From Prevotella sp. (lineage in GTDB: Bacteria > Bacteroidota > Bacteroidia > Bacteroidales > Bacteroidaceae): a stretch of DNA of 43,365 bases. Both the position numbers and the translations under genes were made by a program. The notes under the pieces are model-generated. The model was not told the DNA's origin. It did not search any database and saw only the letters and a list, made by a program, of their open reading frames with translations. The stretch lies in contig JAFZUS010000020.1 in the NCBI GenBank assembly GCA_017618275.1, positions 1 through 43,365 of the forward strand, written 5' to 3'. Shown one piece after another: positions 7,334 through 43,232 of this stretch (position 1 is its first letter; each line of letters begins with the position of its first letter).

Positions 7334-7346
7334 GGTCATGCCCTCC

Positions 7347-7511: not shown

Positions 7512-7565
7512 TTCTGTGTTATTGTTTAAAAGTTTTTTGTTAGTTATTCATCTCATTGGGAACCT

Positions 7566-7588
7566 CACACTGGGACAGTCCCCATGTG
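7566..7588. repeat. GGGACAGTCCC-type palindrome, copy B
   Basis: GGGAC (7572-7576) and GTCCC (7578-7582) form a perfect palindrome around one A, inside an imperfect CACAC...ATGTG outer stem. It begins 8 bases past the stop of the upstream lipoprotein gene. It matches copy A at 5272-5294 in core and flank. Confidence 0.7.
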
Positions 7589-7596
7589 TCATTGTT

Positions 7597-10158: not shown

Positions 10159-10171
10159 AGTCATGCCCTCC

Positions 10172-10339: not shown

Positions 10340-10342
10340 TTA

Positions 10343-11092: not shown

Positions 11093-11099
11093 TGTTCAG

Positions 11100-11127
11100 C
11101 CTCCCAGCCCCTACTTAGGGGGTTTGT
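11100..11127. repeat. Degenerate C-rich palindrome at the 3' end of ilvN
   Basis: CCCCTA (11108-11113) pairs with TAGGGG (11116-11121). The plus-strand sequence CCTCCCAGCCCCTACTTAG resembles the minus-strand half of the palindrome inside ilvD (14158-14204). It overlaps the last codons and stop of ilvN and fills the gap to the thioesterase gene. Confidence 0.5.
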
Positions 11128-11663: not shown

Positions 11664-11690
11664 TTTTTTACCTTTTTACTTTTTTACCCT
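11653..11690 (-). repeat. GTAAAAAG tandem repeats between ilvB and ilvN
   Basis: On the minus strand the spacer reads as consecutive GTAAAAAA/GTAAAAAG units of 8-9 bases, the last of which, GTGAAAAAGG, contains the GTG start of ilvN. A similar array occurs between the PP2C gene and metA (26068-26119). Confidence 0.7.
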
Positions 11691-11692
11691 TA

Positions 11693-13399: not shown

Positions 13400-13418
13400 T
13401 TCAGTTTTTTTTATTTTT

Positions 13419-13482
13419 ATAGGCATTCCTAGGATCACCTAGGATCACCTAGGAGTGCCTAGGATTGCCCAGAACTCCTAGT
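13419..13482. repeat. Period-10 CCTAGG tandem array between ilvD and ilvB
   Basis: CCTAGG occurs at 13429, 13439, 13449 and 13459, each followed by four variable bases, with decayed units at 13419 (ATAGG), 13469 (CCCAGA) and 13478 (CCTAG). Every unit is self-complementary. The array begins over the ilvD stop codon and ends before the ilvB start. A matching array is at 18231-18274. Confidence 0.85.
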
Positions 13483-15295
13483 CAATAATCCTAATACCTC
13501 CTTTATCAGCCGAGGATACGCTCTGGGCATAGGCGCGGAGGGCCTTCGATACCACACGGTTGCGCTTCAGCGGCTGCTGCGGACGGGCGGCCAGTTCCTC
13601 ATCACTGAGTTTCACGTTGATACTGCGGCTGGGGATATCGATGACGATGATGTCGCCATCCTTGATCTTGCCGATGTTTCCACCATTGGCAGCCTCAGGC
13701 GAGATATGTCCGATGGAGAGACCGGAGGTACCGCCCGAGAAACGACCGTCGGTAATCAGCGCACACTCCTTACCGAGATGCATCGACTTGATATAACTCG
13801 TGGGATAGAGCATCTCCTGCATACCAGGACCGCCCTTGGGACCCTCGTGGGTGATGACCACACAGTCGCCTGATTTTACCTTGCCGCCGAGGATGCCCTC
13901 ACAGGCATCTTCCTGAGAGTCGAACACGACGGCAGGACCTTCGAAGTGCCAAAGGCTCTCATCCACGCCTGCAGTCTTGACCACACAACCGTCCTGGGCG
14001 ATGTTTCCGAAGAGGACAGCCAGACCGCCATCCTTGGTATAGGCATGTTCGAGGTCACGGATACAACCGTTGGCACGGTCGGTATCGAGACTCTCCCACT
14101 CTTCCGACTGCGAGCCCATCTTCGTAGAGAAGCGGTTGCCGGGAGCAGAGTAATAAAGACCTACCCCCAACCCCTCACTTCTAGGGAGGGGTTTGGGGAG
14201 GGTCTCTATATCATATTCCTTCATAGCCTCAGACAGCGTCATACCATCCACGCGGATGGCAGAGCCGTCGATGAGACCACCCTTATTCAGTTCATTGAGG
14301 ATGCCGAGGATACCTCCCGCACGACCACACTCCTGCACACTGTACTTCTGCGTGTTGGGAGCAAGTTTGCAGAGACAGGGCACCTTACGGCTCAGCGCAT
14401 CGATATCCTTCATGGTGAAGTCTGCTCCGGCCTCCTGAGCCACAGCCAACAGATGAAGCACGGTATTGGTACTTCCACCCATCGCAATATCCAACGACAT
14501 GGCATTCATAAAGGCCTTGCGGGTAGCGATATTACGAGGCAATACGCTCTCGTCGCCGTCCTCATAATAGGCAAAGGCGTTCTTCACCACCTGACGGGCA
14601 GCGGCCTTGAAGAGTTCAATGCGGTTGGTATGGGTGGCAAGGATAGTACCGTTGCCAGGCAACGAAAGACCGATGGCCTCCGTCAACGAGTTCATCGAAT
14701 TGGCAGTGAACATGCCCGAACAAGAACCACATCCCGGACAAGCACAAGCCTCGATCTCCTTCATCTCCTCGTCGGATACAGAGGGGTCGGCACCCTTGAC
14801 CATCGCCGTAATCAGGTCGGCATTCTCACCACGCCATCTGCCGGCCTCCATCGGACCACCAGAACAGAACACCGTGGGGATATTCAGACGCATGGATGCC
14901 ATCAGCATACCTGGCGTCACCTTGTCACAGTTGGAGATGCAGATCATCGCGTCTGCCTTATGGGCATTCACCATATATTCCACAGAGTCGGCAATGATGT
15001 CGCGAGAAGGAAGCGAGTAAAGCATACCGTCATGCCCCATGGCAATACCATCGTCGATGGCAATGGTATTAAACTCGGCGGCAAAACAGCCCATCTTCTC
15101 AATCTCTGCCTTTACGATCTGACCTATCTCATGCAGATGCGTATGACCTGGTACAAACTGGGTAAACGAGTTGACGACGGCTATAATCGGTTTGCCAAAC
15201 TGTTCCTGTTTCATGCCTGTGGCCACCCAGAGAGCCCTGGCTCCGGCCATTCTTCTTCCTTCCGTGCAAACAGCACTTCTCAGTTGATGTTTCAT
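13478..15295 (-). CDS. ilvD: Dihydroxy-acid dehydratase
   Basis: The 605-aa protein matches IlvD throughout: [20 protein letters not shown] at the start, [14 protein letters not shown] with a cluster cysteine, [19 protein letters not shown] with further cluster ligands, [12 protein letters not shown], and [12 protein letters not shown] and [15 protein letters not shown] near the end. It dehydrates dihydroxy acids to 2-oxoisovalerate and 2-oxo-3-methylvalerate using an Fe-S cluster. It is the first gene of the ilv operon and has its own promoter. An odd feature is the segment [19 protein letters not shown] at residues about 363-381, encoded by a 47-base palindrome. As I recall Bacteroides IlvD, the segment there is different, so this looks like a repeat element tolerated in frame. 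Confidence 0.95.
14158..14204. repeat. 47-base palindromic element inside ilvD
   Basis: GACCTACCCCCAACCCCTC (14158-14176) is an imperfect inverted repeat of GAGGGGTTTGGGGAGGGTC (14186-14204), with CACTTCTAGG-type loop sequence between. It is read in frame as about 16 codons of ilvD. Confidence 0.75.
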
Positions 15296-15318
15296 AAATC
15301 GTGAGTTAATTTAGTTTG

Positions 15319-15349
15319 CAAAGATACATTAAAATCCCCTAATTCCCAA
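15319..15349 (-). promoter_or_regulatory. Promoter of the ilvDBN operon
   Basis: Minus strand: TTG (15349-15347) and TATCTTTG (15326-15319) separated by 20 bases. The -7 box ends 23 bases before the ilvD ATG at 15295. No leader peptide or attenuator hairpin is visible in the short leader. Confidence 0.75.
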
Positions 15350-15377
15350 CATTTTAATCTTTTTTTTGAAGAAAACA

Positions 15378-15409
15378 TTTGGATTATTGAGATGAATGTA
15401 TTATTTTTG
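15378..15409 (+). promoter_or_regulatory. Promoter of the XRE regulator gene
   Basis: TTTG (15378-15381), a 20-base spacer and TATTTTTG (15402-15409) form a consensus Bacteroidetes promoter, 45 bases before the ATG at 15455. It is divergent from the ilvD promoter about 30 bases away. Confidence 0.8.
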
Positions 15410-15454
15410 CAAACGAAAAATGATAATATCTACAAACAACCAAATTTTTATTTT

Positions 15455-15670
15455 ATGAATATCGGACGGAACATCAGGGAAGTGATGAAGAAAAAAGGGA
15501 TGAGTGTGACCCAGTTATCCAAGGAGATACCTTGTGAAAGAACGAATGTCTATAATATCTTCAACAGGAAAGACATCAGCACAAAACTGCTTTGGAGAAT
15601 CTCAGAAGTATTAGACTACAATTTCTTTGAAGATTGCTCCGATGAGTACATCAAGAAATCCCGGAAGTAA
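15455..15670 (+). CDS. Small XRE-family helix-turn-helix regulator
   Basis: The 71-aa protein starts MNIGRNIREVMKKKGMSVTQ and continues LSKEIPCERTNVYNIFNRKD, then LLWRISEVLDYNFFEDCSDE. This is a compact Cro/CI-type HTH with almost nothing beyond it, like many short Bacteroidales regulators. I chose ATG 15455 because HTH homology starts there; the frame upstream to 15392 runs through the promoter. It is divergent from ilvD across about 160 bases, so control of the ilv operon is possible but unproven. Targets unknown. Confidence 0.8.
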   Translation: MNIGRNIREVMKKKGMSVTQLSKEIPCERTNVYNIFNRKDISTKLLWRISEVLDYNFFEDCSDEYIKKSRK

Positions 15671-15676
15671 GAAAAG

Positions 15677-15712
15677 AAAAACGGCCTGAGCGAACGCTCA
15701 AGCCGTTTTTCT
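15677..15712. terminator. Bidirectional terminator between the XRE and OmpA-like genes
   Basis: AAACGGCcTGAGCG pairs with CGCTCAaGCCGTTT around an AA loop, followed by TTTTT on plus and AAAA on the far side. It serves both convergent genes. Confidence 0.85.
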
Positions 15713-15729
15713 TATTATCTGTTTCACTA

Positions 15730-16887
15730 TTATTTTGTCGTATCAGTGAACGTTGCCACACGGTTGAAGTCTATCTCATCGAAGAGTTCGTCTGTGGCAC
15801 CCATACCCTGAGTGGTCAAACGGCTGGCAGAAATGCCGTAACGAGTGACAAGCGCATTCTTCACAGAAGCAGCGCGAGCCTCAGACAGTTTCTGGTTCAA
15901 CTCAGGATTACCCTCAGGAGAAGCATAACCCTTGATCAGAATCTGCGACTCCGGGTGATTCTTCATATACTTTGCAATCATAGCCACACTGGCCATCTGG
16001 GCAGCATCCACACTACTCTTTCCCTGACCAAAGATTACCGTAGGCTGAAGCACGTTATTGTTGACCTTTACCACCTTCGTGACATTTGTCACCACCGTCG
16101 GCTTCACATTCTTAGCAACTTCCAAAGAGTCCTCAAGAGTGCCAATCATACGGATTCCCTGAGCGATACGCTTGTCCTTAGCCACCAACTCGCCCTTCAA
16201 CTCATTGATGAATGTATTCAAGTCGTCTATTTCAGTCTGGTCGCGCAGACTTGCAGTCTTGAAATTGTGCGTACCATTACTATTACCGAACTTGTAGTTG
16301 ATACCCACAAACAACTGGATTGCCGCCGTGTTCAGATCATAGTTGCAACGATGATTGACAGTCAGGTCATAACTGATGGCCGGTTCTACATAGAACTGCC
16401 ATGCACGGGCTTTATCCACATTCAGGAGGAAGTCAAGTCCGAACTTTGATGCCAAGCCATTCATCCTCCTATTCACTGCATCAGATACATGTTTCCATCC
16501 CAGACCGCCAAGGGCCACCACCTCAAAAGGACGAGGCTGTCCCGGATAGCCACCAAACCAGTTGCTGAGGTTCAATGTACCAAGGAAATTCAGATTGAAG
16601 CCCTTCAACCTCTTGGCTTGACTGTAATTAAAGTTCTTGTCACGAAGGAACAAATCACCTTCCAAGGCCCAACCTGCGACCGGGGTCCAATAACGCCCGA
16701 CACGAAGGCCGACAGACGGATTCAAAGACCCGCCAAAATCATTGTTGTGGGTGATTTTTGAACTAAGCCCTCCCTTGATTCCAAGGTACCAGTTGTCAGT
16801 GGTCTTGCTGTCTTCAAGCGCTTGCTGTGAATAAGCAGACTGGAATGACAGCAGCGTCACCATCAACATGAAAAGAGTCTTTTTCAT
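15730..16887 (-). CDS. OmpA-family outer-membrane protein
   Basis: The 385-aa protein has a signal peptide (MKKTLFMLMVTLLSFQSAYS, then QQ). An N-terminal beta-barrel-like region of about 170 residues (WYLGIKGGLSSKI, VGLRVGRYWTPVAGWALEGD) follows. A helical linker comes next (about 210-265, DLNTFINELKGELVAKDKRIAQ). The C-terminal OmpA peptidoglycan-binding domain contains ILIKGYASPEGNPELNQKLS and EARAASVKNALVTRYGISAS. It would anchor the outer membrane to peptidoglycan. It starts only 14 bases after the stop of the oxidoreductase gamma gene with an AAGGAA ribosome site and no promoter box, so it is probably the last gene of that operon. Confidence 0.88.
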   Translation of the reverse strand: MKKTLFMLMVTLLSFQSAYSQQALEDSKTTDNWYLGIKGGLSSKITHNNDFGGSLNPSVGLRVGRYWTPVAGWALEGDLFLRDKNFNYSQAKRLKGFNLNFLGTLNLSNWFGGYPGQPRPFEVVALGGLGWKHVSDAVNRRMNGLASKFGLDFLLNVDKARAWQFYVEPAISYDLTVNHRCNYDLNTAAIQLFVGINYKFGNSNGTHNFKTASLRDQTEIDDLNTFINELKGELVAKDKRIAQGIRMIGTLEDSLEVAKNVKPTVVTNVTKVVKVNNNVLQPTVIFGQGKSSVDAAQMASVAMIAKYMKNHPESQILIKGYASPEGNPELNQKLSEARAASVKNALVTRYGISASRLTTQGMGATDELFDEIDFNRVATFTDTTK

Positions 16888-25146: not shown

Positions 25147-26064
25147 TTATTTAATATCCTCAATATTATAAGGTGTCTCTTGATAGACATAATAGTTCAC
25201 CCAGTTGGTGTAGAACAGGTTGGCATGTGAGCGCCACGACACCATCGGTGGATTCTTCGGGTCGTTATTCCGGTAGTAGTTCAGCGGAGGTGCCACATCC
25301 TTACGGATGTCCTTGTCACGCCTATATTCCTTGTCGAGCGTGTTGGGCGCATACTCCAGATGGCCTGTGATGAAGAACTCTCGCCCACCCCTTGCCATCA
25401 CGATACTGACACCGCTCTCCTCTGATTCGGCAATCAGGTTCAGTTCCGGATTAGCGAGAATATCCTCACGGTGGATCTCCGTATGACGGCTGTGAGGCAT
25501 CATGAACTCATCGTCGAACCCTCTGAAGATAGGCAGACGGGGATCCAAGGGCTTCTGTGGGAAGATGCCAAACATCTTCATCGGCAACGGATACTTGGGA
25601 ATACCATAATAATAATAGAGTCCTGCCTGTGCAGCCCAACATATATATAAGGTACTCGTGACGTGCGTGCGCGCCCACGCGAAGATCTCGGTAATCTCGT
25701 CCCAATAACTGACATCCTCGAACTCCAACTGCTCTACTGGAGCACCGGTAATAATCATACCATCATACTTCTCCTGACGCATCTCGGCAAAGTCACGATA
25801 GAACATCATCATATGCTCTATCGGCGTATTCTTCGGCGTATGGCTCTTCAACTTCATGAAACTGACATCCAACTGTAAGGGCGTATTCGAGAGCAGACGA
25901 ATCAGGTCTGTCTCCGTCGTAATCTTCAACGGCATCAAGTTGAGAATGGCTATGCGCAACGGACGGATATCCTGCGAATGAGCACGGGTATCATCCATCA
26001 CGAAAATATTCTCTTGTTTCAACAGGTCTATGGCCGGAAGTCTATCTGGTAATCTTAATGGCAT
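25147..26064 (-). CDS. metA: Homoserine O-acyltransferase, predicted O-acetyltransferase
   Basis: The 305-aa protein matches the MetA family: RIAILNLMPLKITTETDLIR, then Cys142 in YICWAAQAGLYYYYGI as nucleophile, and His235 and Glu237 in ITGHLEYAP. Residue 111, in ITGAPVEQLEF, is glutamate. In studied MetA proteins Glu111 favours acetyl-CoA and Gly111 favours succinyl-CoA, so this enzyme probably makes O-acetylhomoserine for methionine synthesis. It follows the PP2C gene by 40 bases of GTAAAAAG-type repeats and is followed directly by the U32 gene (TAATTG). Family assignment is firm; acyl donor is inferred from the residue. Confidence 0.93.
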   Translation of the reverse strand: MPLRLPDRLPAIDLLKQENIFVMDDTRAHSQDIRPLRIAILNLMPLKITTETDLIRLLSNTPLQLDVSFMKLKSHTPKNTPIEHMMMFYRDFAEMRQEKYDGMIITGAPVEQLEFEDVSYWDEITEIFAWARTHVTSTLYICWAAQAGLYYYYGIPKYPLPMKMFGIFPQKPLDPRLPIFRGFDDEFMMPHSRHTEIHREDILANPELNLIAESEESGVSIVMARGGREFFITGHLEYAPNTLDKEYRRDKDIRKDVAPPLNYYRNNDPKNPPMVSWRSHANLFYTNWVNYYVYQETPYNIEDIK

Positions 26065-26067
26065 ATC

Positions 26068-26119
26068 TCTTTTACCTTTTTACTTATTATCCTTTTTTAT
26101 TTTTTTACCTTTTTACTTT
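26068..26119 (-). repeat. GTAAAAAGG tandem repeats between the PP2C gene and metA
   Basis: Minus strand: AAAGTAAAAAGGTAAAAAAA, then further AAAAAAGG and GTAAAAAGGTAAAAG units up to the metA ATG. The first GTAAAAAGGTAA supplies the last codons and the stop of the PP2C gene. Same sequence type as 11653-11690. Confidence 0.7.
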
Positions 26120-26851
26120 TATCAGACAGGCTGACACATTATCAAAGCCTCCCCGTACGATAGCAGCATTGCAGAGATCATTGGCATCAGCGCCTTCCGT
26201 CAAAAGTATGTTCAAACGATGGTCGCTCATCATATCGGTCAATCCGTCGCTGCAGAGCAGGAAAGCATCGCCATCCTGAATGTCCTCTATCTGTACCAAA
26301 TCAATATAGGAACTAGTGCATCCGCCGCCAATACAGTTAGTGATAATACTGGAATGCTTCTTGTTGCCCATCAGACTACTCAGCGAGTGATCGGTAGTCA
26401 ACTGCACTAGTTCTTCATTTCTAATACGGTAAAGACGACTGTCTCCACAGTTCATGGAATAGAAAGCCCCCTCGTAATAGGCCAGTGCCACAAGAGTGGT
26501 TCCCATCCCCTTATACTGTTCATTAGCCTTTCCCTTCGAGTCGAGAACGATATTGATGGATTCAAGCCACTCCATAATCATCTCAATAAAAGAACTGGCA
26601 TCAAGCCCCACTGGAAGGTCGTTGAAAAAAAACTGCAAGTTGTGAAGCACGTCACTACTTGCCACCTCTCCGCTCAGATGACCTCCCATGCCATCGGCAA
26701 CAGCCATCATATAACGGTCTCCATCCCCCAGTTCAAGTAGTGTGCGGTATTCGTCGTTTCGGATGAACTGGTGACCCACGAGGATCATGTCCTCATTATC
26801 ATGTCTCACACAGCCGATTCTACAGGCTGCTGATATTTCCAATTCTATCAT
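26105..26851 (-). CDS. PP2C-family Ser/Thr protein phosphatase
   Basis: The 248-aa cytoplasmic protein has all the bacterial PP2C motifs: RHDNED (16-21), VADGMGGHLSGEVAS (51-65) with the metal-binding Asp, GMGTTLVAL, GDSRLYRIR, LLCSDGLTDMMSD and GGFDNVSACLIKV. It should remove phosphate from Ser/Thr residues in a metal-dependent way. It is the last of five tightly spaced minus-strand genes; the others encode a Ser/Thr kinase, an FHA protein, an AAA+ ATPase and a zinc-ribbon protein. Its natural role is the eraser for that kinase. Confidence 0.93.
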   Translation of the reverse strand: MIELEISAACRIGCVRHDNEDMILVGHQFIRNDEYRTLLELGDGDRYMMAVADGMGGHLSGEVASSDVLHNLQFFFNDLPVGLDASSFIEMIMEWLESINIVLDSKGKANEQYKGMGTTLVALAYYEGAFYSMNCGDSRLYRIRNEELVQLTTDHSLSSLMGNKKHSSIITNCIGGGCTSSYIDLVQIEDIQDGDAFLLCSDGLTDMMSDHRLNILLTEGADANDLCNAAIVRGGFDNVSACLIKVKR

Positions 26852-26864
26852 AGAGTCTTAAATG

Positions 26865-27449
26865 CTATCTGACTATCACCTGCAAATTGATATTTGCGAT
26901 AGTCAGGATATCACCATTGTTAAGGGCCATGTCCACATCCGGCTGCAACGGACGCTGATTAACCTTCGTACCGTTTGAAGAGTGCTTGTCGGTAATCAAC
27001 CAGCCGCTACCGGCCTTGTATTTCAACTGGGCATGAACACCAGAGACATAGGCATGCTGTTCGAAGAATTGGGTGTAAGGGCCTTTACGACGACCTATGA
27101 CAGCACCATTAATACCCACGATACGGATATTCAGGCTGTCGTTGGCCAGCGTCAGCACAGGGACACCTGACGAAGACGAACGCGGGTGCACCAGCGGAAC
27201 AGCCACGCCCCCTACGACAGATGCCGTCACAGCGGACACATTAGCCTGAAGGCTCTCAGACATGCCCGGATGAGCCTGGGATGGCTGCCGCTGTTCATTC
27301 GGAGACACCATCAGTCCTCCACAGCGTGTACAACGACGGCCTATACCCACGTGTCCACACTGGTTACAAAACAACAACGCCTGTCCACACTGGTCACAGA
27401 AATGGGAGTCATTGTCAATCTCTTCTTTACATGTAGGACAAATAATCAT
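26865..27449 (-). CDS. Zinc-ribbon and FHA-domain protein
   Basis: The 194-aa protein starts with two zinc ribbons: Cys4, 7, 18, 21 (CPTCKEE...FCDQCG) and Cys28, 31, 40, 43 (CNQCG...CTRCGG). After a Pro/Ser/Gln-rich linker, residues about 100-194 form an FHA domain with GRRKGPYTQF, VSGVHAQLKY and SSNGTKVNQRPL, the GR, SxxH and NG motifs needed to bind phosphothreonine. It starts 5 bases after the AAA+ gene and ends 13 bases before the phosphatase. It is the expected reader of the adjacent kinase's product, much as Fha proteins act in type VI secretion control, though no secretion gene is here. Confidence 0.9.
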   Translation of the reverse strand: MIICPTCKEEIDNDSHFCDQCGQALLFCNQCGHVGIGRRCTRCGGLMVSPNEQRQPSQAHPGMSESLQANVSAVTASVVGGVAVPLVHPRSSSSGVPVLTLANDSLNIRIVGINGAVIGRRKGPYTQFFEQHAYVSGVHAQLKYKAGSGWLITDKHSSNGTKVNQRPLQPDVDMALNNGDILTIANINLQVIVR

Positions 27450-27454
27450 ATCTC

Positions 27455-30400
27455 TTATTCAATATCTTCTGGTAATATTAACTGATAGGTCTCCTTCGTC
27501 ACCTGATCTGGCGGTAACTGAGACACACGCTCAGAGAGTTTCTGGATGGTCGAGTCAAGCAGGTTACGCATCTCACGGGCATTACCCCAGTTCGCATTCT
27601 TGTTGACAACCATGCGATAGATCTTATCCAACAACTTGAACTCTGCTTCCTGTGATAATGTGTACTGGTCTTTCTGGGCCATACCTTTGTAGATGGCCAG
27701 TAACTCGTCTTCATTATAGTCGTCGATCTGCAACTTATGGGTAAAGCGGCTGGCAAGACCAAGATTGATCTGCATGAACTCCTCCATCTTATCCTTGTAG
27801 CCTGCTGCAATGACCACGAACTTACCACGATCATCCTCCATACGCTTCATCAGGGTATCGATGGCTTCCTTGCCATACATATCGCCACCGTCACTCAGCG
27901 TATAGGCCTCGTCGATGAAGAGGATACCACCCATGGCCTTGTCACACATATTGTTGACAATCTTAGGTGTCTCACCCATATACTTACCGACAAGTGTTGC
28001 ACGACTAGACTCAATGACACGGGCTGTCGGCAGGATATCCATAGCCTGAAGCACCTCACCCATCTTACGGGCAATGGAGGTCTTACCAGTACCAGGATTA
28101 CCTGTCAGGATGAAATTCATCGACATCTGCTGAACACTACCGGCACCAGCAGCAGCACGTTGCTTCATGAACATACTCTGTACGGCCAGACGACGGATAG
28201 AGTTCTTGACAGAACGCATGCCGACAAACTCGTCCAGTTCGTTGAGAACCTCATCAAGCGGACGGGCTGTCTCATTCTGAGCCATCGGCAGGTCAGCCGT
28301 AGTCAGCCGATACATATCCTCCTCCTTGAAGTTCGGGTCGTTCATCTGCGAGACAAGACGCTGACTCTGTTTCTCAACGGCCTCGTTGAAGATACGGCGT
28401 GCCTCACGGGCATTACCGAAGTTCTTGTCGCGACGCAAATAAAGTTGCTCAAACTGACGATGGATGGATGCCTTCGTATTCTCGTCGACAGTGAATTTCT
28501 TGCCAGCAGCCAGGTTGAGGAATATCTGTGTCAGTTCGTCTGGTGTATAGTCGTCGAAATGTATCGTCTGTGTGAACCGACTCTTCAAGCCTGGGTTGGT
28601 ATCGATGAAGTCGTGCATCTGATCCGTGTAGCCTGCCACAATACAGATGAACTTTCCACGATCGTCTTCCAGACGCTTCAACAGGGTATCAATAGCCTCG
28701 GCGCCAAAGGAATCGCTATCGTTCGACTTCAAGGTATAAGCCTCATCGATAAACAGCACGCCACCGATAGCCTCATCCACCAACTGATTCGTCTTGATGG
28801 CCGTCTGTCCGGAATAGCCTGCCACCAGTTTAGCACGGTCGGCCTCCACCAGTTGTCCACGGGATACAATACCGAGTGTCTTGAAGACATCGGTCATAAT
28901 TCGGGCCACAGTGGTCTTACCTGTACCAGGATTACCCGTGAAGACATAGTGCTTACCCTGGAAGGTATTGGTCTCTCCACGCTTGATCTGCAAGTTGAGG
29001 AAGGCAGCCAGGTTGGAAATCTCCTTCTTGACGGCACCAAGTCCCACTAGACCGTCAAGTGCCTTGAGACATTCCTTATAGTCAACCGTCTTCGGAGCCT
29101 CATACGGCACATCCTGGTCTTCAATTGTCATCAACTGCTCGTTACTCATCGATGAGATGTCTGCACCCTGCAGGCGCTGGGCCTGTTTCTTACAAATCTG
29201 ATCGAAGAGAGTGCGCATCGTACGTCCGTTGGCAAAGTCCTTGCCACGTGAGTCGTACATCTCCTGGATCATCTTCTTCGTCTGGGCCTCAGCCTGTGGC
29301 GAGAAGATATATTTCTTCGCCTTTGCAAAGACGAGCATAATCTGATACAACTCATCGGGCGAGTAGTCCTCGATATTGAGGAAATAGTTGAAGCGGCTGC
29401 GGAAGCCCGGATTGATACGGAAGAGGTTTTCCATCTCCGTCCGGTAGCCGGCAGCGATGACTACGAACTTGCCACGATCATCCTCCATGCGCTTCATCAA
29501 CTTCTCCAGAGCCTGGGCACCTTGGTTGTCACGGTCACCGGCAGAACTGACAGGAGCCAACGTGTAAGCCTCATCCACAAAGAGGATACCACCCATCGCC
29601 TTGTCGCAAAGCCGGTCTACCACCTTCGGGGTCTCTCCCTGATAGGGACTGACCATCTTGGCACGGTCGACTTCTACCACATGACCACTGTCCAGATAAC
29701 CGATGGCAGCCAGAATCTCACCCAACTTACGGGCAATGGTGGTCTTACCTGTACCCGGATTACCTGTCAGGATGATATGCATCGACATCTTCTCCTGCTC
29801 ACCCAATCCACGCTCCTGACGCTGAACGGCATTCTGTACGGCGTATGCTATCTCACGGACGGCACTCTTCACCTCGCTCATGCCGATGAAGTTGTCGAGA
29901 TCCTTGAGTATGTCCTCAATCGTACGCTCCTCCGGCACATAACCCTTAATGTCTGATTTCTCCACGACCGTAGCCTGTGCACCTCGGGTGATAAACTGTG
30001 TGAAGATATCCTCAGCCGTTTTTGTTGCCAGATGGGCGTAGCCAAACGTCTCGTCCTTGATTTTTACCTGATATTTGAAGAAACGTTTCAGTTGATCGTC
30101 GGCCTCAGGTGTGAAGTCGGTAATGCCATAACGGATCTTCAGACTCATCTTACAAATATCCGTCAGTTCCGGATAGCCGGGCGACGGTAGACGGAACGTA
30201 TACTTAAAACGATTCTTTACCGCTGGGTTGTTCTCTAAGAAATCATCCAATCCTTTGGGAAGACCGGACATCATCACAATCGGATTGTCCTCCCACTTGT
30301 CCATCTCAACAAACAACTTGTCGAGGGGATTCACCTGATTGGAATACTTATCAGGCAGGAGTTTCTGCACATTGTCAAAGAACAGAATACCGTCCTTTGC

Positions 30401-30763
30401 CTTCTTGATGTTATCATCCCATTTGTCAACGAAACGCTGATAGTCAACAGCATCTACCATCGTCAACTTCGGTCTTGCAATAATCTTATTCTGGTAGAAA
30501 TAGTCACGGAGTATTTCTGCGAGCGCAGTCTTACCTGTACCTGTTTCACCGATAATGATTGCATTCACCGATACACGGGCTTTGGCAATGTCTTTTCTTG
30601 AACGCAAAAAAGTATAGGTGTCGACAATGGTCTTGAGTTGCTTTTTCACATCATCAAGACCAATGAGTCTGTCGAGCAGATTCTGACTGACCAGTGGCTG
30701 TCCGCACCACTTGCAGAATTTCGCTATGCTTCTGTTCTCTTTATGGCAATGTTCGCAAATCAT
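27455..30763 (-). CDS. Four-module AAA+ ATPase with N-terminal zinc ribbon (CbxX/CfxQ, SpoVK-like)
   Basis: The 1102-aa protein opens with a zinc ribbon (Cys3, 6, 17, 20) and then has four AAA+ modules. The first is divergent: Walker A GETGTGKTA at 72-80, and Walker B GILFFDNVQKL with Asn in place of the catalytic Glu. Modules two to four, with Walker A near 331, 607 and 886, are CbxX/CfxQ-type: each has GNPGTGKT(T/S)(I/V)AR, GG(I/V)LF(V/I)DEAYTL and a later RF of the arginine-finger region. Such proteins usually have one or two modules and form hexameric remodelling motors (EccA, rubisco activase CbbX). The start ATG directly follows the kinase stop (TAAATG). The client is unknown. Confidence 0.9.
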   Translation of the reverse strand: MICEHCHKENRSIAKFCKWCGQPLVSQNLLDRLIGLDDVKKQLKTIVDTYTFLRSRKDIAKARVSVNAIIIGETGTGKTALAEILRDYFYQNKIIARPKLTMVDAVDYQRFVDKWDDNIKKAKDGILFFDNVQKLLPDKYSNQVNPLDKLFVEMDKWEDNPIVMMSGLPKGLDDFLENNPAVKNRFKYTFRLPSPGYPELTDICKMSLKIRYGITDFTPEADDQLKRFFKYQVKIKDETFGYAHLATKTAEDIFTQFITRGAQATVVEKSDIKGYVPEERTIEDILKDLDNFIGMSEVKSAVREIAYAVQNAVQRQERGLGEQEKMSMHIILTGNPGTGKTTIARKLGEILAAIGYLDSGHVVEVDRAKMVSPYQGETPKVVDRLCDKAMGGILFVDEAYTLAPVSSAGDRDNQGAQALEKLMKRMEDDRGKFVVIAAGYRTEMENLFRINPGFRSRFNYFLNIEDYSPDELYQIMLVFAKAKKYIFSPQAEAQTKKMIQEMYDSRGKDFANGRTMRTLFDQICKKQAQRLQGADISSMSNEQLMTIEDQDVPYEAPKTVDYKECLKALDGLVGLGAVKKEISNLAAFLNLQIKRGETNTFQGKHYVFTGNPGTGKTTVARIMTDVFKTLGIVSRGQLVEADRAKLVAGYSGQTAIKTNQLVDEAIGGVLFIDEAYTLKSNDSDSFGAEAIDTLLKRLEDDRGKFICIVAGYTDQMHDFIDTNPGLKSRFTQTIHFDDYTPDELTQIFLNLAAGKKFTVDENTKASIHRQFEQLYLRRDKNFGNAREARRIFNEAVEKQSQRLVSQMNDPNFKEEDMYRLTTADLPMAQNETARPLDEVLNELDEFVGMRSVKNSIRRLAVQSMFMKQRAAAGAGSVQQMSMNFILTGNPGTGKTSIARKMGEVLQAMDILPTARVIESSRATLVGKYMGETPKIVNNMCDKAMGGILFIDEAYTLSDGGDMYGKEAIDTLMKRMEDDRGKFVVIAAGYKDKMEEFMQINLGLASRFTHKLQIDDYNEDELLAIYKGMAQKDQYTLSQEAEFKLLDKIYRMVVNKNANWGNAREMRNLLDSTIQKLSERVSQLPPDQVTKETYQLILPEDIE

Positions 30764-33754
30764 TTAGTTTTCGTTGTTATCTATCTGTTGAATAATCTCT
30801 GTGGGACTGGCTCCTTCCAAGACTTCACTGCTGGGGTTCTTCAAATTCATCATACTCGGACTATACAAAATGAAAACTATCACAAAGATGAGAGCCAGGA
30901 TACTCCACAACACATAGTGAAGTACACTCTCGCCACTGATAGAGCGCACCTGGTCAGTCACATCATCGAGAAGCCCGAACTTAGACCCCTTGAAGCGATA
31001 TGATTTTGTTTTGAATGTATAATAGAGCGGCTCAAGCAACGTCGACTTGATGTCGTTATCGAGCACTTCTGATATCAACTTACTGTCAGCCTTCTGATCG
31101 CCACGGAAATCCGTCAGATGACAGACTAGAATGTAGACCAACGAGATGGCTACAATTGCCAGACTGAACAAAGAAGGATGCGACTGTACGATATACTTTA
31201 GAATAATAATAGGTATAAACGATGAAGCCAATCCTAACAGTCCCCACAAAAGCGAGAAGAAGAAGCCGTAACCACGGAAATAGGCCCTCGTTGCCACAAT
31301 GATGGCCGTCATACCTCCCAACGGCAGACCAATGGTAAGGAACGGATGCGCCATCAGGTACTCATAATTCACACCGAAGATCAGCACCAACACGATCCAC
31401 GCACCTGACAACGCATAAAAAATCCAGCGCCAGACATTCTCCTTACCCTTGGCACGTCTCCAATTACTCTTCACTTCCTTCACCCTGTCGGATGTCTCCT
31501 GGCGGGCATCCACAAAACGCTTATAATAGGTTTGTGTCTTGTCTATCTTCCCGATATCATTCAACCAGTCCTCCAACGTATGCTCATAGGAGTATTCCTC
31601 CATAAAGTCGGCATTGGGGTCTTCATGGTAGAATGCTGCCATCCACTGTATGAACGAACCGTTACGGATTTCCTGACGAATCATACCATAGTAACGAGGA
31701 TCAATGTCCCGACCATCAGTCAGTTCCGTACCGTCAGACAACTGATAGACGGGAGTAGTACCCAGGATGCGGCAGAAACGGTAGAGCGCCGTCCTGGCGT
31801 CGTAGGCCCCCAGACGTTCCTTGTTCTCCTCGCTTTTGAAGTCAAAACAGCGGTTAGCCTCGTTGAGTATCTCGTTCCAGCCATGCAACTGGGCAAAATA
31901 ACAGAAGCGACCTCCTGGCTCCAAGAAGTCTTCCATCTCCTTAACGAACTCCTCATCGCTCAGGCTCTGGGATTCTATCAAGCGGTCTTTCAACAAGTCG
32001 CCAACGCCGAGTGGCGTATGGGCAAACCGTAAGTCGTAGGCAGCCTCACGATCCAGGTTATATAGCACCTTGTAAGCCAACGACTTTGAATAGGGCTGCC
32101 CCTGCGTCAGGATACGAAGACTCTCACAGGCCATTTTGTCCTCATGACTGTACATCCACGACAGCAGACGTCCGTCTGTCAGACTATGCCAATCGTCATC
32201 AGTAATGGATTCCCTACCGAAAGCCTTCACAATTTCCTTGAGTGTGGATGACGGGAAACGGGCCATCAGAGGAATATCGGGATCTATCTCATAAACAACC
32301 CGCATGACTGCTATACGGGGATCAAAGCCTTCCTTCTTCTCGAAATAAGAACGCAGACGTTTAACATTACATTTCGTATGCGACTCCAAATAAAGGAAAA
32401 GCGTATCATTAGGATTGGTCAACAACATGCCGTACTCCTTGGAATAACTGAGCATCGACATCGCCACGCTGTGAATGTCATCACAGAAACTGCCTTTCAC
32501 GTCCTTGTAGGCATAAGTTGGCTCCATCACGTAGATGGCAGCCATCAGTCCGGCATGCTGGTCGACGGGATACCTGTTGACCACGATATCTCTCACGATG
32601 GTACTGAGTTTCGTGTTGCCACACGATTCCAGCCAGTTGCCGATACGCCCGTTGTAGAGATAGCCGATAGCCAGTTTCTCATTCTCGATGAGCAGAGGCA
32701 CCAACTCGTGTATGTTGTCAGCCACCAGATTACGATCTGGATCTACAATAAACGTCTTATATCTCAAGAAGGGTGACGAGATGTCCACCTGCGGACTCTC
32801 CCCTTCGAACCATTTCTCCACTTCGTTATATCCCCAACGATTGATAGGATTCACAGAGGTGAGACCCTGCACAATCATGCGCACACGGTCGGGCAACTCA
32901 TTCAGGTGGGGCAGTCTGCCTTCGTTCTTCTGACGCATCATCACACGCTCATTACTACTCATGGGATTGCCGTCCAACCAGAGGGCCATCAGCGTGATTC
33001 CCAATGAATAGAAGTCGGCAGCAGGCGTAATCTCCACCACGCCGTCAATCACGTCGGCATACATCTCAGGAGCCGCATAGATTGGCGTACGGGCCTGGGT
33101 GGTGCGGTGCGACTTACCGTCCTGCTCCAACAGGCTGGAGATACCGAAGTCACCAAGCACCAGTTCTGTATGTTCCTTGTCACGGAAGAAGAAATTACTA
33201 GGCTTCACGTCCTTGTGCAGAATGCTGTTACCATGACAGTAGGCCAGTGCGGCAGCACCCTGAAGGGCAATCCTACGGAACTTGTCCAGATTGCCGTTGA
33301 GGTGATAGTGAGCCAGCGAACCTCCCACCAGATATTCCATCAACTCATAATAGCGGTGCTTGCCCTCCACGTAGGTCTTACCGTAGTCGATCAGACTGAC
33401 AATCATCTCAAAGTCAAGATTATGAATGGTCTGAAGCAGTTTCTTGTTAACATCGAAATTCGGATAATAGACTTTCAGTACATAATCGCATCCATCTTTG
33501 TCAACAAGGAACACCTGCGCCTCACCGCTATTGTCACTCAGGCATTTCTGGTTGTGGTACCTCTCCCCTTTCAGGTTAAAGTAGTCACTGTCATTGTTCA
33601 GCACGGTATCATTTACCATCGGTTCAGAAGGACGCCTCGTCGTGTCCTCCGCCGGCATCATATTACCAGCAGATACAGAACTGGACATAGCACGCATCGT
33701 GCTGTCCATATTCATATTCGCGTCTTCTATCGTCGTAGGTCTCAGTGTACTCAT
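30764..33754 (-). CDS. Membrane-anchored Hanks-type Ser/Thr kinase
   Basis: The 996-aa protein has a kinase domain at about 62-315: Lys94 in YVLKVYYP, LHKDVKPSNFFF with Asp182 and Asn187, GDFG with Asp202, and APE at 228-230. Lys181 replaces the usual Arg of HRD. The middle 450 residues are mostly helical, with no family I recognise. Residues about 770-965 contain five or six hydrophobic helices (IFYALSGAWIVLVLIFGV, FLTIGLPLGGMTAIIVA, SLLWGLLGLASSFIPIIIL, LFSLAIVAISLVYILV, LHYVLWSILALIFVIVFILY), so the kinase is tethered to the inner membrane. Its start overlaps the upstream zinc-ribbon gene by one base (TAATG), and its stop touches the AAA+ start. Confidence 0.9.
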   Translation of the reverse strand: MSTLRPTTIEDANMNMDSTMRAMSSSVSAGNMMPAEDTTRRPSEPMVNDTVLNNDSDYFNLKGERYHNQKCLSDNSGEAQVFLVDKDGCDYVLKVYYPNFDVNKKLLQTIHNLDFEMIVSLIDYGKTYVEGKHRYYELMEYLVGGSLAHYHLNGNLDKFRRIALQGAAALAYCHGNSILHKDVKPSNFFFRDKEHTELVLGDFGISSLLEQDGKSHRTTQARTPIYAAPEMYADVIDGVVEITPAADFYSLGITLMALWLDGNPMSSNERVMMRQKNEGRLPHLNELPDRVRMIVQGLTSVNPINRWGYNEVEKWFEGESPQVDISSPFLRYKTFIVDPDRNLVADNIHELVPLLIENEKLAIGYLYNGRIGNWLESCGNTKLSTIVRDIVVNRYPVDQHAGLMAAIYVMEPTYAYKDVKGSFCDDIHSVAMSMLSYSKEYGMLLTNPNDTLFLYLESHTKCNVKRLRSYFEKKEGFDPRIAVMRVVYEIDPDIPLMARFPSSTLKEIVKAFGRESITDDDWHSLTDGRLLSWMYSHEDKMACESLRILTQGQPYSKSLAYKVLYNLDREAAYDLRFAHTPLGVGDLLKDRLIESQSLSDEEFVKEMEDFLEPGGRFCYFAQLHGWNEILNEANRCFDFKSEENKERLGAYDARTALYRFCRILGTTPVYQLSDGTELTDGRDIDPRYYGMIRQEIRNGSFIQWMAAFYHEDPNADFMEEYSYEHTLEDWLNDIGKIDKTQTYYKRFVDARQETSDRVKEVKSNWRRAKGKENVWRWIFYALSGAWIVLVLIFGVNYEYLMAHPFLTIGLPLGGMTAIIVATRAYFRGYGFFFSLLWGLLGLASSFIPIIILKYIVQSHPSLFSLAIVAISLVYILVCHLTDFRGDQKADSKLISEVLDNDIKSTLLEPLYYTFKTKSYRFKGSKFGLLDDVTDQVRSISGESVLHYVLWSILALIFVIVFILYSPSMMNLKNPSSEVLEGASPTEIIQQIDNNEN

Positions 33755-34683
33755 TATATATCGTCTTTAATTTCTTGTCTTGAATTCTTGCCGAGGATAA
33801 TCCACTTGCCTCCCATCTGCGGTTTGGCACAGCCACAAGGACTAGAATGCAACGCATGCTTAAAGTTACATTCCCATGCCAGACGGACACCTTGGGGCTT
33901 GCAGGCCATCGCGTAGTTACGCACCTTGGCCGGCTGAGACTGAGGGGGCTGGGCCATCTTCTCCAACAGTTCTGTCAGACGGTTCACACGTACGCTCTTC
34001 TTGGCGTCCAATTCTTCCTTCTTGACACGCTTGGAGGGTCTTTCCACCACAGGTGTCGTAGAACCTTTATCCTGAGCCAACAATGTCAGTACACGCTCAC
34101 GCAACTTGCGGTTCAACTGGTCACGCACCAAGTCTTTCTCCGAAGAGAACGGGAGGGACATCTCCAGTTCATCCAACTCCTTGGCCAACTCCTGCATCTC
34201 TTTATACTCAGGCGTCATCTGCAGTTCTGCCAGCAACTGACGGGCATCTTCTGTCAAGGCTGTACCGCATTGCTTACAGAAAGCGAAGTCATTGAGGGTA
34301 TGGCAGACAGGACATACTATTCCGCCTCTCGGGCTACCGCATTCCGGGCAGAAAGCCTCCTGACCTGAAAGATAGGCACCACAGAAAGAACAGACATCTG
34401 TTCGGATATAATGATGGCAGACCTCACAGAAATCAGCATCAGGATCTATTTCTGCTCCACAGTTCGGACAAGTCATCTTACCAAGAGGTTGTCCACAAGA
34501 AGCGCAGAACATTGCATCTGGTTCATTGACTGTACCACAATAAGGGCACTGTCTGCCATTTGCTGTCTGGAATAACACAGCCTGCTGCTGTTCCACAGCG
34601 GGGCTGTCCATTACCAGTTCTTCCCGCTGAAGTTCTTGTACCCCTCTATCGGTCCTATCCGGATTAAGTGTAATATCGTTCAT
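33754..34683 (-). CDS. Multi-zinc-ribbon protein, first gene of the kinase cluster
   Basis: The 309-aa protein has a short N-terminal tail, then five CxxC zinc-knuckle pairs between residues 46 and 142 (CPYCG, CASCG, CPNCG, CEVCH, CSFCG, CPECG, CPVCH, CKQCG). These make about four double-zinc ribbons. A charged coiled-coil-like region follows (about 150-235, MQELAKELDELEMSLPF). The last 60 residues contain another Cys/His cluster (ACKPQG, ECNFKHALHSSPCGC) and a short conserved-looking end. I do not recognise the C-terminal domain. Zinc ribbons recur in three of the five cluster proteins and probably mediate their contacts. It has its own promoter and is translationally coupled to the kinase. 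Confidence 0.8.
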   Translation of the reverse strand: MNDITLNPDRTDRGVQELQREELVMDSPAVEQQQAVLFQTANGRQCPYCGTVNEPDAMFCASCGQPLGKMTCPNCGAEIDPDADFCEVCHHYIRTDVCSFCGAYLSGQEAFCPECGSPRGGIVCPVCHTLNDFAFCKQCGTALTEDARQLLAELQMTPEYKEMQELAKELDELEMSLPFSSEKDLVRDQLNRKLRERVLTLLAQDKGSTTPVVERPSKRVKKEELDAKKSVRVNRLTELLEKMAQPPQSQPAKVRNYAMACKPQGVRLAWECNFKHALHSSPCGCAKPQMGGKWIILGKNSRQEIKDDI

Positions 34684-34712: not shown

Positions 34713-34745
34713 CAAAGTTAATAAAAATTTCTTAAACCAAACAAA
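34713..34745 (-). promoter_or_regulatory. Promoter of the zinc-ribbon/kinase/AAA+/FHA/PP2C operon
   Basis: Minus strand TTTG (34745-34742), 21-base spacer, TAACTTTG (34720-34713), 29 bases before the ATG at 34683. The -33 box falls in the T-run of the upstream terminator. It is the only promoter seen before the five genes. Confidence 0.75.
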
Positions 34746-34780
34746 AAAACCGCCGTAAATTTACATTTACGACGGCATTT
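34743..34780 (-). terminator. Intrinsic terminator after the M13 peptidase gene
   Basis: CCGCCGTAAAT (34750-34760) pairs with ATTTACGACGG (34765-34775), one mismatch, and on the minus strand is followed by T7 (34749-34743). It separates the M13 gene from the kinase operon. Confidence 0.85.
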
Positions 34781-41836: not shown

Positions 41837-42466
41837 CTATCGTAGGCTGAACAGGAATTTCTGGTCAGTGTATTCCCATTGGGCGGTACCAAAGCGGATG
41901 AGGCGGGCAAGAAGAATGATAACCTTATGACGGGGGATACCCGAACGGCGGACAATCTGGTTGAGGGTAAGGCATTGGCCTTCCATAGCATCCAACAGTT
42001 TCCTGACGGTATCGGTATAGGTCATCATGGTGCCGTTTGGTGTCTGCGACTCGCGCCAGATAGCAAGATGTACAGGGGAGGCAACGATGTTCTCATCGGC
42101 AATGCGGAGGTAGGCGCGTGGCTTTTCATCTGCATTGACGACACAGATGGGACGTTTGTCGGATGGTGGGACGGTGGCGATAACGATGGTACGTCCATCG
42201 ATGTGGTAAGTGTCGAACTTGATACTGGCCTCTGGACGACAATAGCGGTAGGCGGCCTGATGCATCATATAGATCTCCTCCTCAGAACGAACACCCGACA
42301 TCTGACCGTCATCACGAACACCAATGAGTAATCGTCCTCCGTCTGTATTGGCGAAGGCTGATACCGATTTTGCCAATTTCAGGGCATCGGAAACACGATA
42401 CTTGAAGTCCTGCTGCTGGTGTTCGCCCTCATTGATCAGGCTCTGAAGATACCTTTTGTCGTCCAT
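41837..42466 (-). CDS. AlbA_2 (Schlafen-like) domain protein with C-terminal winged helix
   Basis: The 209-aa protein has the AlbA_2/divergent AAA-4-type N-terminal domain: EHQQQDFKYRVSDALKLAKS, FANTDGGRLLIGVRDDGQMS, and later RPICVVNADEKPRAYLRIAD. The last 50 residues (CLTLNQIVRRSGIPRHKVII) look like a winged helix. Members are DNA/RNA-binding regulators or nucleases of poorly known function. It is convergent with tex across 34 bases. The -7 box lies only 7 bases before the ATG, so the mRNA would have almost no leader. Confidence 0.8.
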   Translation of the reverse strand: MDDKRYLQSLINEGEHQQQDFKYRVSDALKLAKSVSAFANTDGGRLLIGVRDDGQMSGVRSEEEIYMMHQAAYRYCRPEASIKFDTYHIDGRTIVIATVPPSDKRPICVVNADEKPRAYLRIADENIVASPVHLAIWRESQTPNGTMMTYTDTVRKLLDAMEGQCLTLNQIVRRSGIPRHKVIILLARLIRFGTAQWEYTDQKFLFSLR

Positions 42467-42572: not shown

Positions 42573-42863
42573 ATGAAGAAATTTTTGGTTTCTATCGTGT
42601 TGACTTGCTCAGCCATGGTTATGCTGAGTGGTTGTATCGTGTCGGAAGACAAGTTGACGGACAAGGTAAAGGAGGCGATGGTGGAATATGAACAAGAACA
42701 GGGTAAACGCCTTGTAGTGACTGACCTTAAACTCGAGAAGAGCGAAGGAAACAACTACAAGGGTGTACTGACAGGAAGGCTCGACGGTGTGGATGTGACC
42801 TATGACGTGACCGTCGATGATTCTGGCAGCGACTTCGACGTAGATTGGGAACCAAGGCAGTAA
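42573..42863 (+). CDS. Small lipoprotein of unknown function
   Basis: The 96-aa protein has a signal peptide with lipobox LSGC (Cys21) in MKKFLVSIVLTCSAMVMLSG, followed by IVSEDKLTDKVKEAMVEYEQ. The C-terminal half alternates in a beta pattern (GVLTGRLDGVDVTYDVTVDD) and ends acidic (SGSDFDVDWEPRQ). The helix-then-sheet layout resembles small DUF4333/DUF4352-type lipoproteins, but I cannot name a family. It is followed after 6 bases by the YgjP-like gene, perhaps one transcript. Confidence 0.75.
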   Translation: MKKFLVSIVLTCSAMVMLSGCIVSEDKLTDKVKEAMVEYEQEQGKRLVVTDLKLEKSEGNNYKGVLTGRLDGVDVTYDVTVDDSGSDFDVDWEPRQ

Positions 42864-42869
42864 GACTGA

Positions 42870-43232
42870 TTGGCCATACAGGTGACATATAGAAGGACGA
42901 GCCGATTGTCGATGCGCATCACGAAGAATGGCGATGTGCATGTATCGGCTCCCATTGGTCTGCCCAAGAAACAAGTCGTGGATTTTATTGAACAGCATCA
43001 AGACTGGATAGACGAAGCCAGAAAGAAAACCAGCGAGAGACAGAAACAACGGGCCAATTTCTACAATCAATTGTCTCTGACGACGCAGGCTCAAAGGATT
43101 GAGGCTTGGAAGAAGTTGAAGGTTATATTGGAACCAATGGTGGAGAAGTATTCAAAGGAGATGGGTGTCACCCCCTCTACGGTATCCTGCAAACCGATGA
43201 TCTCCCGTTGGGGGCGATGCAACGTGTCTTAG
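42870..43232 (+). pseudogene. Truncated YgjP-like (DUF45) metallopeptidase
   Basis: The frame covers 120 codons from TTG 42870 (or GTG 42882) and matches the first half of YgjP/DUF45 proteins: SMRITKNGDVHVSAPIGLPK, QVVDFIEQHQDWIDEARKK and CKPMISRWGRCNVS. In intact relatives the RWGxC motif is followed by about 90 more residues with HExxH zinc ligands. Here the frame stops right after RWGRCNVS, and no other frame continues it. A transposase-like start begins about 60 bases later, so insertion has probably removed the catalytic half. The product should be inactive. Confidence 0.75.

Follow-up and report, generated by a model that had tools for sequence, protein, structure and literature searches.

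Post-translational control of the type VI secretion system (T6SS) is exerted by the PpkA/Fha/PppA set, which unites a membrane kinase, an FHA protein and a PP2C phosphatase. Overlapping sets of domains are found in other described systems. The TerY-P triad, with a Ser/Thr kinase, PP2C and zinc ribbons in the system, is described in part of PMC11090510 as a TerY-like vWA protein together with a kinase fused C-terminally to a zinc ribbon. KKP has PP2C, kinase and FHA functions in one cluster and, according to a portion of PMC11341870, two kinases, one fused to FHA and the other to a cold-shock domain. A survey of conflict systems lists, in the section consulted, triads of kinase, PP2C and vWA with zinc ribbons, and not the set reported here (PMC7159879). 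By analogy, the nearest worked precedent is the archaeal ArnA/ArnB pair of Sulfolobus, in which ArnA has an N-terminal zinc ribbon followed by FHA. As presented in part of PMC12852372, ArnA binds its partner loosely by means of the zinc ribbon, and a tight contact through FHA comes in addition when the kinase ArnC phosphorylates; the zinc-ribbon contact and the FHA-phosphothreonine contact alternate, and both the kinase and a phosphatase act on the ArnA/ArnB complex. The phosphatase is PP2A.

Here we analyse a block of five genes in a stretch of 43,365 nucleotides of Prevotella sp. DNA (contig JAFZUS010000020.1), referred to below as the window. An earlier note, made from the letters of the window, had reported five genes for a zinc-ribbon protein, a membrane kinase, a four-module AAA+ protein, a zinc-ribbon/FHA protein and a PP2C phosphatase at 26105..34683, with gaps or overlaps of 13 bases or fewer. 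Open reading frames and Pfam agree with this observation, which is confirmed, and the junctions ZR/KIN, KIN/AAA+, AAA+/FHA and FHA/PP2C measure -1 (a 1-base overlap), 0, 5 and 13 bases. The layout is as follows.

34749..34776, minus strand: terminator-like hairpin of the M13 peptidase gene, upstream of the block (12 pairs, then TTTTTTG)
34713..34745, minus strand: presumed Bacteroidetes-type promoter TTTG-N21-TAACTTTG (pattern count and upstream alignment)
26105-34683, minus strand: whole block of five genes, in the order ZR, KIN, AAA+, FHA, PP2C from the promoter side
33754..34683, minus strand: ZR, multi-zinc-ribbon protein, 309 aa (ORF, Pfam and alignment of 19)
30764..33754, minus strand: KIN, membrane Ser/Thr kinase, 996 aa (ORF, Pfam and alignment)
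27455..30763, minus strand: AAA+ protein, 1102 aa, N-terminal zinc ribbon and four modules (ORF, Pfam, NCBIfam and alignment)
26865..27449, minus strand: zinc-ribbon/FHA protein, 194 aa (ORF, Pfam and alignment)
26105..26851, minus strand: PP2C phosphatase, 248 aa (ORF, Pfam and alignment)
25147..26064, minus strand: metA (homoserine O-succinyltransferase), flank downstream of PP2C (Pfam)

The Pfam matches are a double zinc ribbon in ZR (1.4e-19), Pkinase in KIN (4.8e-28), AAA in four stretches of the AAA+ protein (2.7e-59) plus three AAA_lid_6, FHA (1.9e-13) with DZR (2.6e-7) in the FHA protein, and PP2C_2 in the phosphatase (4.3e-11).

The FHA protein shares the layout of ArnA, and the best solved match of the FHA profile is ArnA, across zinc ribbon and FHA together; against this likeness, the single FHA sequence of the window does not retrieve ArnA when used as query. 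The Arn system differs in having the vWA protein ArnB, in lacking an AAA+ motor and in the family of its phosphatase, which is other than PP2C, and Pfam revealed no vWA partner of the ArnB type in the cluster. Membership of TerY-P was rejected: no TerY-like vWA was matched by Pfam in the five cluster proteins and 20 further proteins of the window, and the kinase-zinc ribbon fusion is absent as well, as no zinc ribbon is among the Pfam matches listed for KIN and its C-terminal part carries membrane spans. KKP membership was also discarded, since the block has one kinase, an FHA domain on a separate protein and an AAA+ protein in addition. Compared with PpkA/Fha/PppA, the AAA+ and ZR proteins are extra here, and a scan of 25 window proteins, a subset of its ORFs, turned up no T6SS structural gene. 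Within that same scope no secretion, vWA or Ter gene was detected, which supports the view that the block does not fit these systems. No description of the five-gene combination was found in the open-licence literature, which is weak evidence of novelty. The signalling and motor families are known ones; what we regard as new is their conserved combination, together with a site code that can be read from the sequence.

Conservation, gain and loss of the block

The analysis covered 30 loci (the window, L037-L047, L059-L066, L070-L072 and L184-L190). All five genes were found in the same order and on the same strand in 24 of them; PP2C alone is absent in two (L038 and L043), and a contig end cuts the remaining four (L041, L042, L060 and L066). 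As the genes recur together in 24/30 loci with kinase identities down to 23 %, the five genes are a conserved unit, beyond what chance would give, and they stay together in different neighbourhoods, a check that the earlier note had proposed. The distant members, whose kinases are 23-28 % identical to that of the window, are spread over other genera, over further families within the order and further classes within the phylum, and have differing neighbours (the neighbour comparison took in 19 of the 30 loci, with Pfam run on 20 neighbour ORFs). At the near end, the block is present in at least three named relatives, from assemblies of Prevotella and Prevotellaceae (L070-L072), and the KIN of L070 is 91 % identical to ours. 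Pairwise distances of the five proteins correlate with r of 0.86-0.97 across 23 loci, a result that plain vertical co-inheritance would also produce.

Small variations of the layout were observed: an extra small ORF lies between ZR and KIN in L059 (where it is of the SUKH type) and L060, another between KIN and AAA+ in L066, and L064 has a second, short AAA piece. Several kinase loci were rejected as members. L067 (genome G667), with a 732-aa kinase ORF scoring 142 bits and a PP2C-like ORF, gave no ZR, AAA or FHA match and was left out of the 30 loci. The tandem kinase arrays L050-L055 had no ZR-, AAA- or FHA-type BLAST match; PP2C-like matches do occur in L050, L052 and L054. The tandem kinases on contig C180 of the Prevotella genome itself were set aside too, L209 being without a ZR-, AAA- or FHA-type profile match.

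Within the genus, the site between the M13 peptidase gene and metA was compared in 30 genomes, and it is filled in 8 and empty in 11. Filled sites have an M13-to-metA interval of about 8.7 kb, and all seven that were fetched besides the window hold the five genes; at the 11 empty sites the two flanks lie 57-298 bases apart. Another genome (G842) has 2.3 kb of other sequence between them, three lack an M13 match, three have M13 but no metA match, and in four (G838, G840, G844 and G858) the two genes are not a simple adjacent pair. In the genus, the block comes and goes as a whole. Its presence is patchy at every rank sampled. The family sample has it in at least 12 of 151 genomes (own genome counted, all with E 1e-74 or better), the order sample in at least 4 of 295 (own genome counted, one weaker match set aside) and the phylum sample in at least 7 of 395 (own genome and G005 counted). 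All three are lower bounds; at most two candidates per genome were scored in the alignment searches.

A phage or plasmid origin received no support from the plasmid, phage-collection or viral-contig matches. Plasmid kinase matches were generic, none covering 80 % of the query, and ZR had no plasmid match. Three of the 11 phage-collection records that match the AAA+ protein (L150-L152) showed no other cluster profile; a fourth such contig, L153, was read from its annotation.

The earlier note had proposed one promoter for the block. The pattern TTTG-N21-TAACTTTG, that of a Bacteroidetes-type promoter, occurs six times in the window against 0.5 expected, and a pattern search of the window revealed no second copy within the cluster. 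Its TAnnTTTG box is invariant in 7/7 aligned regions upstream of ZR and is present 5' of ZR in 8/8 filled genus sites. The hairpin ahead of it is weak evidence on its own (11 of this type in the region against 8.6 expected); similar sequence stands at the same place upstream of the block in several relatives. The proposal of a single promoter holds for the start of the cluster, but the transcript probably runs past PP2C into metA, since the 150 bases preceding metA hold no TAnnTTTG box in the window or in 7/7 filled relatives. Such a box precedes metA in 5 of the 11 empty sites.

Modules of the AAA+ protein

The AAA+ protein was previously described as a four-module protein of the CbxX type. 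The four modules and the family hold, with NCBIfam cut-offs passed for SpoVK (4.8e-234), EccA (9e-210) and CbbX (1.6e-189), these values being sums over repeated modules, and with EccA1 and CbbX as the nearest solved chains. The modules are not equal, however: the first is degenerate, and in relatives it is followed by two to four intact ones.

29975..30679, minus strand: module 1, Walker A GETGTGKT, Walker B ILFFDN (alignment)
27464..29908, minus strand: modules 2-4, intact Walker A and B (DEAY) (alignment)

At the Walker B position of module 1, among 20 proteins, 15 have D-N, L045 and L046 have D-D (L046 being taken from the alignment) and L047 has D-S; L066 has an intact D-E, and L064 is left out of this tally. 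With the exception of L066, all examined proteins have a Walker A in module 1. As Walker A is kept and Walker B is mostly D-N, module 1 is probably hydrolysis-dead. It is followed by two intact modules in L045 and L046 and by four in L059, L062 and L063; all other complete proteins have three. Because the total thus varies from 3 to 5, stacked or serial modules would fit better than one fixed ring per chain, and a dynein-like ring of modules in one chain is disfavoured. The N-terminal zinc ribbon is absent among the 25 Pfam matches listed; its cysteines C3, C6, C17 and C20 are invariant in 10/10 aligned relatives.

Characterised members of the SpoVK/CbbX/EccA clade typically have one module. 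The protein described here resembles the clade in its family-model matches and nearest solved chains, and is unlike it in its 3-5 modules per chain, its zinc ribbon and its probably dead first module. The clade is defined, in the part of PMC10659427 that deals with it, by a GY at sensor 1 and by Asn/Arg-finger features, and its members are presented there as chaperones acting on narrow targets. Judged by eye, modules 2-4 have this signature (GY at sensor 1, an Asn four residues before the first Arg finger, and the second Arg finger) in stretches of the types AGY, N-P-G-x-R/K-S-R and N-A/G-R-x-x-R, and module 1 is without the GY signature. Figure 3A of the same paper, which shows operons including zinc-binding proteins, may contain an earlier sighting of a related operon. 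Two- and three-module AAA+ proteins exist on phage contigs. Bacillus phage G was rejected as a carrier of a four-module protein: the match spans about 1.2 kb, and the long query coverage came from repeated matching of a few modules.

Tail motifs and the signalling proteins

The earlier note had also put forward a kinase that writes, an FHA protein that reads and a phosphatase that erases. As the key residues of all three are conserved, this scheme is plausible. In KIN, Lys94, H-x-D-x-K-x-x-N and DFG are invariant in 19/19 aligned sequences; in the FHA protein, R120 and S136, presumably phosphate-binding residues together with N159, are invariant in 16 sequences and N159 is nearly so; and the active-site residues of PP2C are invariant in the alignment. 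The eraser is not universal, since two clusters are without PP2C. The genomes of those two loci, L038 and L043, gave no match to the PP2C profile of the block, so no substitute was matched, and the PP2C of the block is the sole PP2C_2 match in the Prevotella genome. ZR has a conserved C-terminal motif, W-x-C ... H-x-x-P-x-x-C-x-x-P-x-x-G-G-x-W, in the alignment of 19. Further features of ZR and KIN are these.

34645..34659, minus strand: T-x-R motif DRTDR near the ZR N-terminus (motif scan)
33584..33754, minus strand: flexible N-terminal tail of KIN, with three [DE]-x-T-x-R motifs (motif scan)
32819..33499, minus strand: kinase domain of KIN (profile match; invariant catalytic residues)
31505..32752, minus strand: middle region of KIN, helical, related to a unit of about 95 residues that is repeated in some relatives (repeat search; low-confidence model)
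30869..31426, minus strand: about five predicted membrane spans of KIN, residues 777-962 (hydropathy)

The unit of about 95 residues is clearly repeated in L061-L063 only (second copy at E 5e-12 to 2e-13); in the KIN of the window it is too diverged to call as a repeat, and the repeat stretch of L062 matched no Pfam family better than E 0.2. The AlphaFold2 model of KIN is of low confidence (mean pLDDT 51), with helices at about 65-83 in parts of the middle region. Bacterial SH3 domains often bind the cell wall, and one lies in the long C-terminal kinase tail of L065 (E 1.2e-12). Other relatives also have long C-terminal tails, three of which gave no Pfam match, and the kinase of the window has only 34 residues beyond its last span. 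The C-terminal part of the kinase looks like a variable sensor across the membrane. Other kinases exist in the genome, four in tandem on contig C180 and one below cut-off on contig C89, and cross-talk with them is therefore possible.

The motif [DE]-x-T-x-R, of which DDKTIR is an example, occurs 53 times in the 30 kinase N-terminal tails (2166 residues), against a mean of 1.9 and a maximum of 6 after shuffling. The ZR tails hold 8 motifs against a shuffled mean of 0.8 and a maximum of 5; this count refers to 29 loci and includes one overlong tail, with the ZR of L188 read as 449 aa and that of L190, missed by ORF calling, recovered by tblastn. Among 16 aligned FHA proteins, four have the motif at the end and one more has it in a linker (the tally in the shuffle test is 3, as the tail of L061 crosses the region boundary). 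Elsewhere the motif stays near background: 10 against a mean of 8.5 in KIN outside the tail, 2 against 1.7 in PP2C (which appears to start late in the ORF calls of L061, L070 and L071) and 21 against 19.8 in 162 other ORFs. The AAA+ proteins show no excess (6 against 14.4). In the window itself there are three motifs in KIN, one in ZR and none in the FHA protein, and no protein with two or more motifs of the strict form was found in the other loci compared.

The strict motif is found in the kinase tails of 20 of the 30 loci. As several tails that lack it carry related repeats, the T-x-R feature seems to be kept while its letters drift; such repeats are DKTLKP in L064, HATGRAV in L045 and SGTQRP in L065, which has one strict motif, and L040 is the sole locus among the 30 without any T-x-[RK] in the kinase tail. 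A genome-wide phospho-code was rejected for the one motif form searched: the exact DNA pattern for D-K-T-x-R (limited x) was counted 59 times in five genomes against 88 for the reversed control, with no excess, and matches less than 300 bases apart occurred only in the contigs of the block. We regard the motifs of the tails as probable phospho-threonine sites for the FHA domain, and read the pattern as a largely closed circuit in which the kinase would mark its partners as well as its own tail, with the FHA domain as the reader of the mark. The T-x-R tails and the degenerate module 1, both missed by the earlier note, suggest a mechanism; the earlier interpretation as a whole is partly supported.

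A proposed phospho-threonine switch and its alternatives

We propose, with a probability of about 0.5, that the block encodes a self-contained phospho-threonine switch and, under its control, a remodelling machine of its own at the inner membrane, the AAA+ protein. The kinase domain of KIN would be turned on by a signal that reaches its membrane or C-terminal part, and KIN would phosphorylate the T-x-R threonines of its own N-terminal tail and of those ZR or FHA tails that carry one. The FHA domain would then bind these phospho-threonines. The zinc ribbons of the FHA, ZR and AAA+ proteins may keep the partners loosely tethered, as in archaeal ArnA/ArnB. The complex would then pass from loose to tight, and the AAA+ motor would be brought to the membrane or activated there. 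The intact modules would hydrolyse ATP, with module 1 as a nucleotide-bound anchor, and PP2C would reset the switch where it is present. Judging from its analogues CbbX, EccA and SpoVK, the motor probably serves one or a few targets as a chaperone. The shared docking through zinc ribbons that the earlier note suggested has an experimental precedent in ArnA/ArnB, in the part of PMC12852372 cited above, from which tethering would be extended here by analogy; a two-step tether of this kind would be the simplest role for the zinc ribbons that three of the five proteins carry. Several observations count against the switch: 10/30 kinase tails are without the strict motif, two clusters are without PP2C, and the genome has at least four other kinases. 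As the motif is not in excess in the AAA+ protein, a putative coupling of this protein to the phospho-signal would have to run through ZR/FHA or the zinc ribbons.

SUKH-type and DUF1963 families are known as immunity proteins, and both occur at some loci: L059 and L063 (and L060 by similarity) have SUKH-type genes within the block or next to it, and DUF1963 is next to that of L064. This is among the observations in favour of an anti-phage or conflict defence, in which an infection sensed by the kinase would lead, by way of phospho-signalling, to the release of a destructive AAA+ activity. The patchy, all-or-none presence of the block, the resemblance of the kinase domain to MAD6 and PD-T4-6 in PADLOC and the existence of kinase-phosphatase defence modules (KKP, in the portion of PMC11341870 cited) point the same way. 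However, PADLOC matches were limited to the kinase and AAA domains, with none for ZR or FHA and one for PP2C at E 0.004; none of the five proteins has a nuclease or toxin domain, a second cluster gene was found in 0/77 viral-contig loci, and the surroundings in the window are housekeeping-like in the scan of 25 proteins, with one exception, a Schlafen/AlbA_2 gene at 41837. We consider defence unlikely. An envelope checkpoint, in which the motor chaperones one cell-envelope enzyme (compare SpoVK/MurG) and the kinase reports the envelope state through its spans and C-terminal tail, seems improbable to a similar degree. The five spans, the long C-terminal tails of some relatives, one with the SH3 domain, and the precedent of the AAA+ clade (in part of PMC10659427) would suit it, but the kinase of the window has just the short stretch noted above after its last span, and no envelope enzyme recurs beside the block save the M13 peptidase at the genus site and an outer-membrane efflux-type set at two loci of one genus.

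The domain types shared with known systems (kinase, FHA, PP2C and an EccA-like AAA+) could also mean that the block regulates a secretion or stress system encoded elsewhere, of the T6SS PpkA/Fha/PppA, T7SS or TerY-P type. With a kinase that has neither a zinc ribbon nor a vWA partner, and no T6SS, vWA or Ter family among the window proteins scanned, this is very improbable. VipB had no match in the genome either, which is a weak test, as a Bacteroides control genome was also without a match to the model; the VipB model may miss Bacteroidetes sheaths. The least probable reading is that the block regulates methionine supply by co-transcription with metA: metA follows PP2C without a TAnnTTTG box of its own in 8/8 filled sites and also follows the block in L040, from another genus, but in most other neighbourhoods it is not beside the block.

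Returning to the phospho-threonine switch, its most far-reaching form is that a membrane kinase with a built-in T-x-R array would, with a zinc-ribbon/FHA adaptor as the reader, bring about the assembly of an AAA+ motor whose single chain holds several modules, one of them locked and two to four active. This would be a new class of bacterial signalling machine. We advance this tentatively, at rather below even odds. To our knowledge, few outputs of Ser/Thr phospho-signalling have been described beyond a small number of model bacteria. The five genes would supply writer, reader, eraser, probable sites and effector together, and as the block supplies its own probable sites, those to mutate first can be read from the tails. 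How linked AAA+ modules work can be studied here in a natural experiment, since the number of intact modules changes and the degenerate one ahead of them stays constant. If the proposal is true, a phosphate mark would switch a mechanical machine directly, and not a transcription factor or a secretion system, and the block would join the zinc-ribbon/FHA switching of archaeal motility control to an ATP-driven chaperone.

Genes accompanying the block in relatives

In relatives carrying the five-gene block (loci L059, L060, L063 and L064), genes of two further types were found at it, the SUKH-type genes lying inside or beside the block and the DUF1963 gene adjoining it:

L059:7304-8083, SUKH-type gene
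L063:10445-10966, SUKH-type gene
L060:4665-5132, SUKH-type gene, assigned by similarity to the L059 gene
L064:16931-17575, DUF1963 gene

Other genes of the window

The other genes of the window include two with the domains listed here and two ORFs that gave no Pfam match at E 0.001:

387-4262 (+), 1291-aa ORF with dockerin type I and Fib_succ_major domains
7597-10227 (-), 876-aa ORF, no Pfam match
41837-42466 (-), Schlafen/AlbA_2 domain gene (E 5.9e-20)
42609-43094 (-), 161-aa ORF, no Pfam match

Kinase and FHA genes elsewhere in the genome

Another contig of the same genome contains four Hanks-type kinases of 467-746 aa in tandem, with N-termini that are alike (locus L209, G000:C180:5000-24900; kinases at ~6554-16274 of the locus). 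Similar arrays were present in relatives (L050-L055), some of them with PP2C-like genes. The second FHA protein of this genome, encoded on contig C119 (L210:11730-12260), also starts with a zinc-ribbon-like stretch.

Phage AAA+ genes

SpoVK/CbbX-type AAA+ genes resembling modules of the block's motor, its multi-module AAA+ protein, were detected in Bacillus phage G (gp596, JN638751) and in Mycobacterium phage Adler (L153), the latter annotated as similar to Rv3868 of ESX-1.
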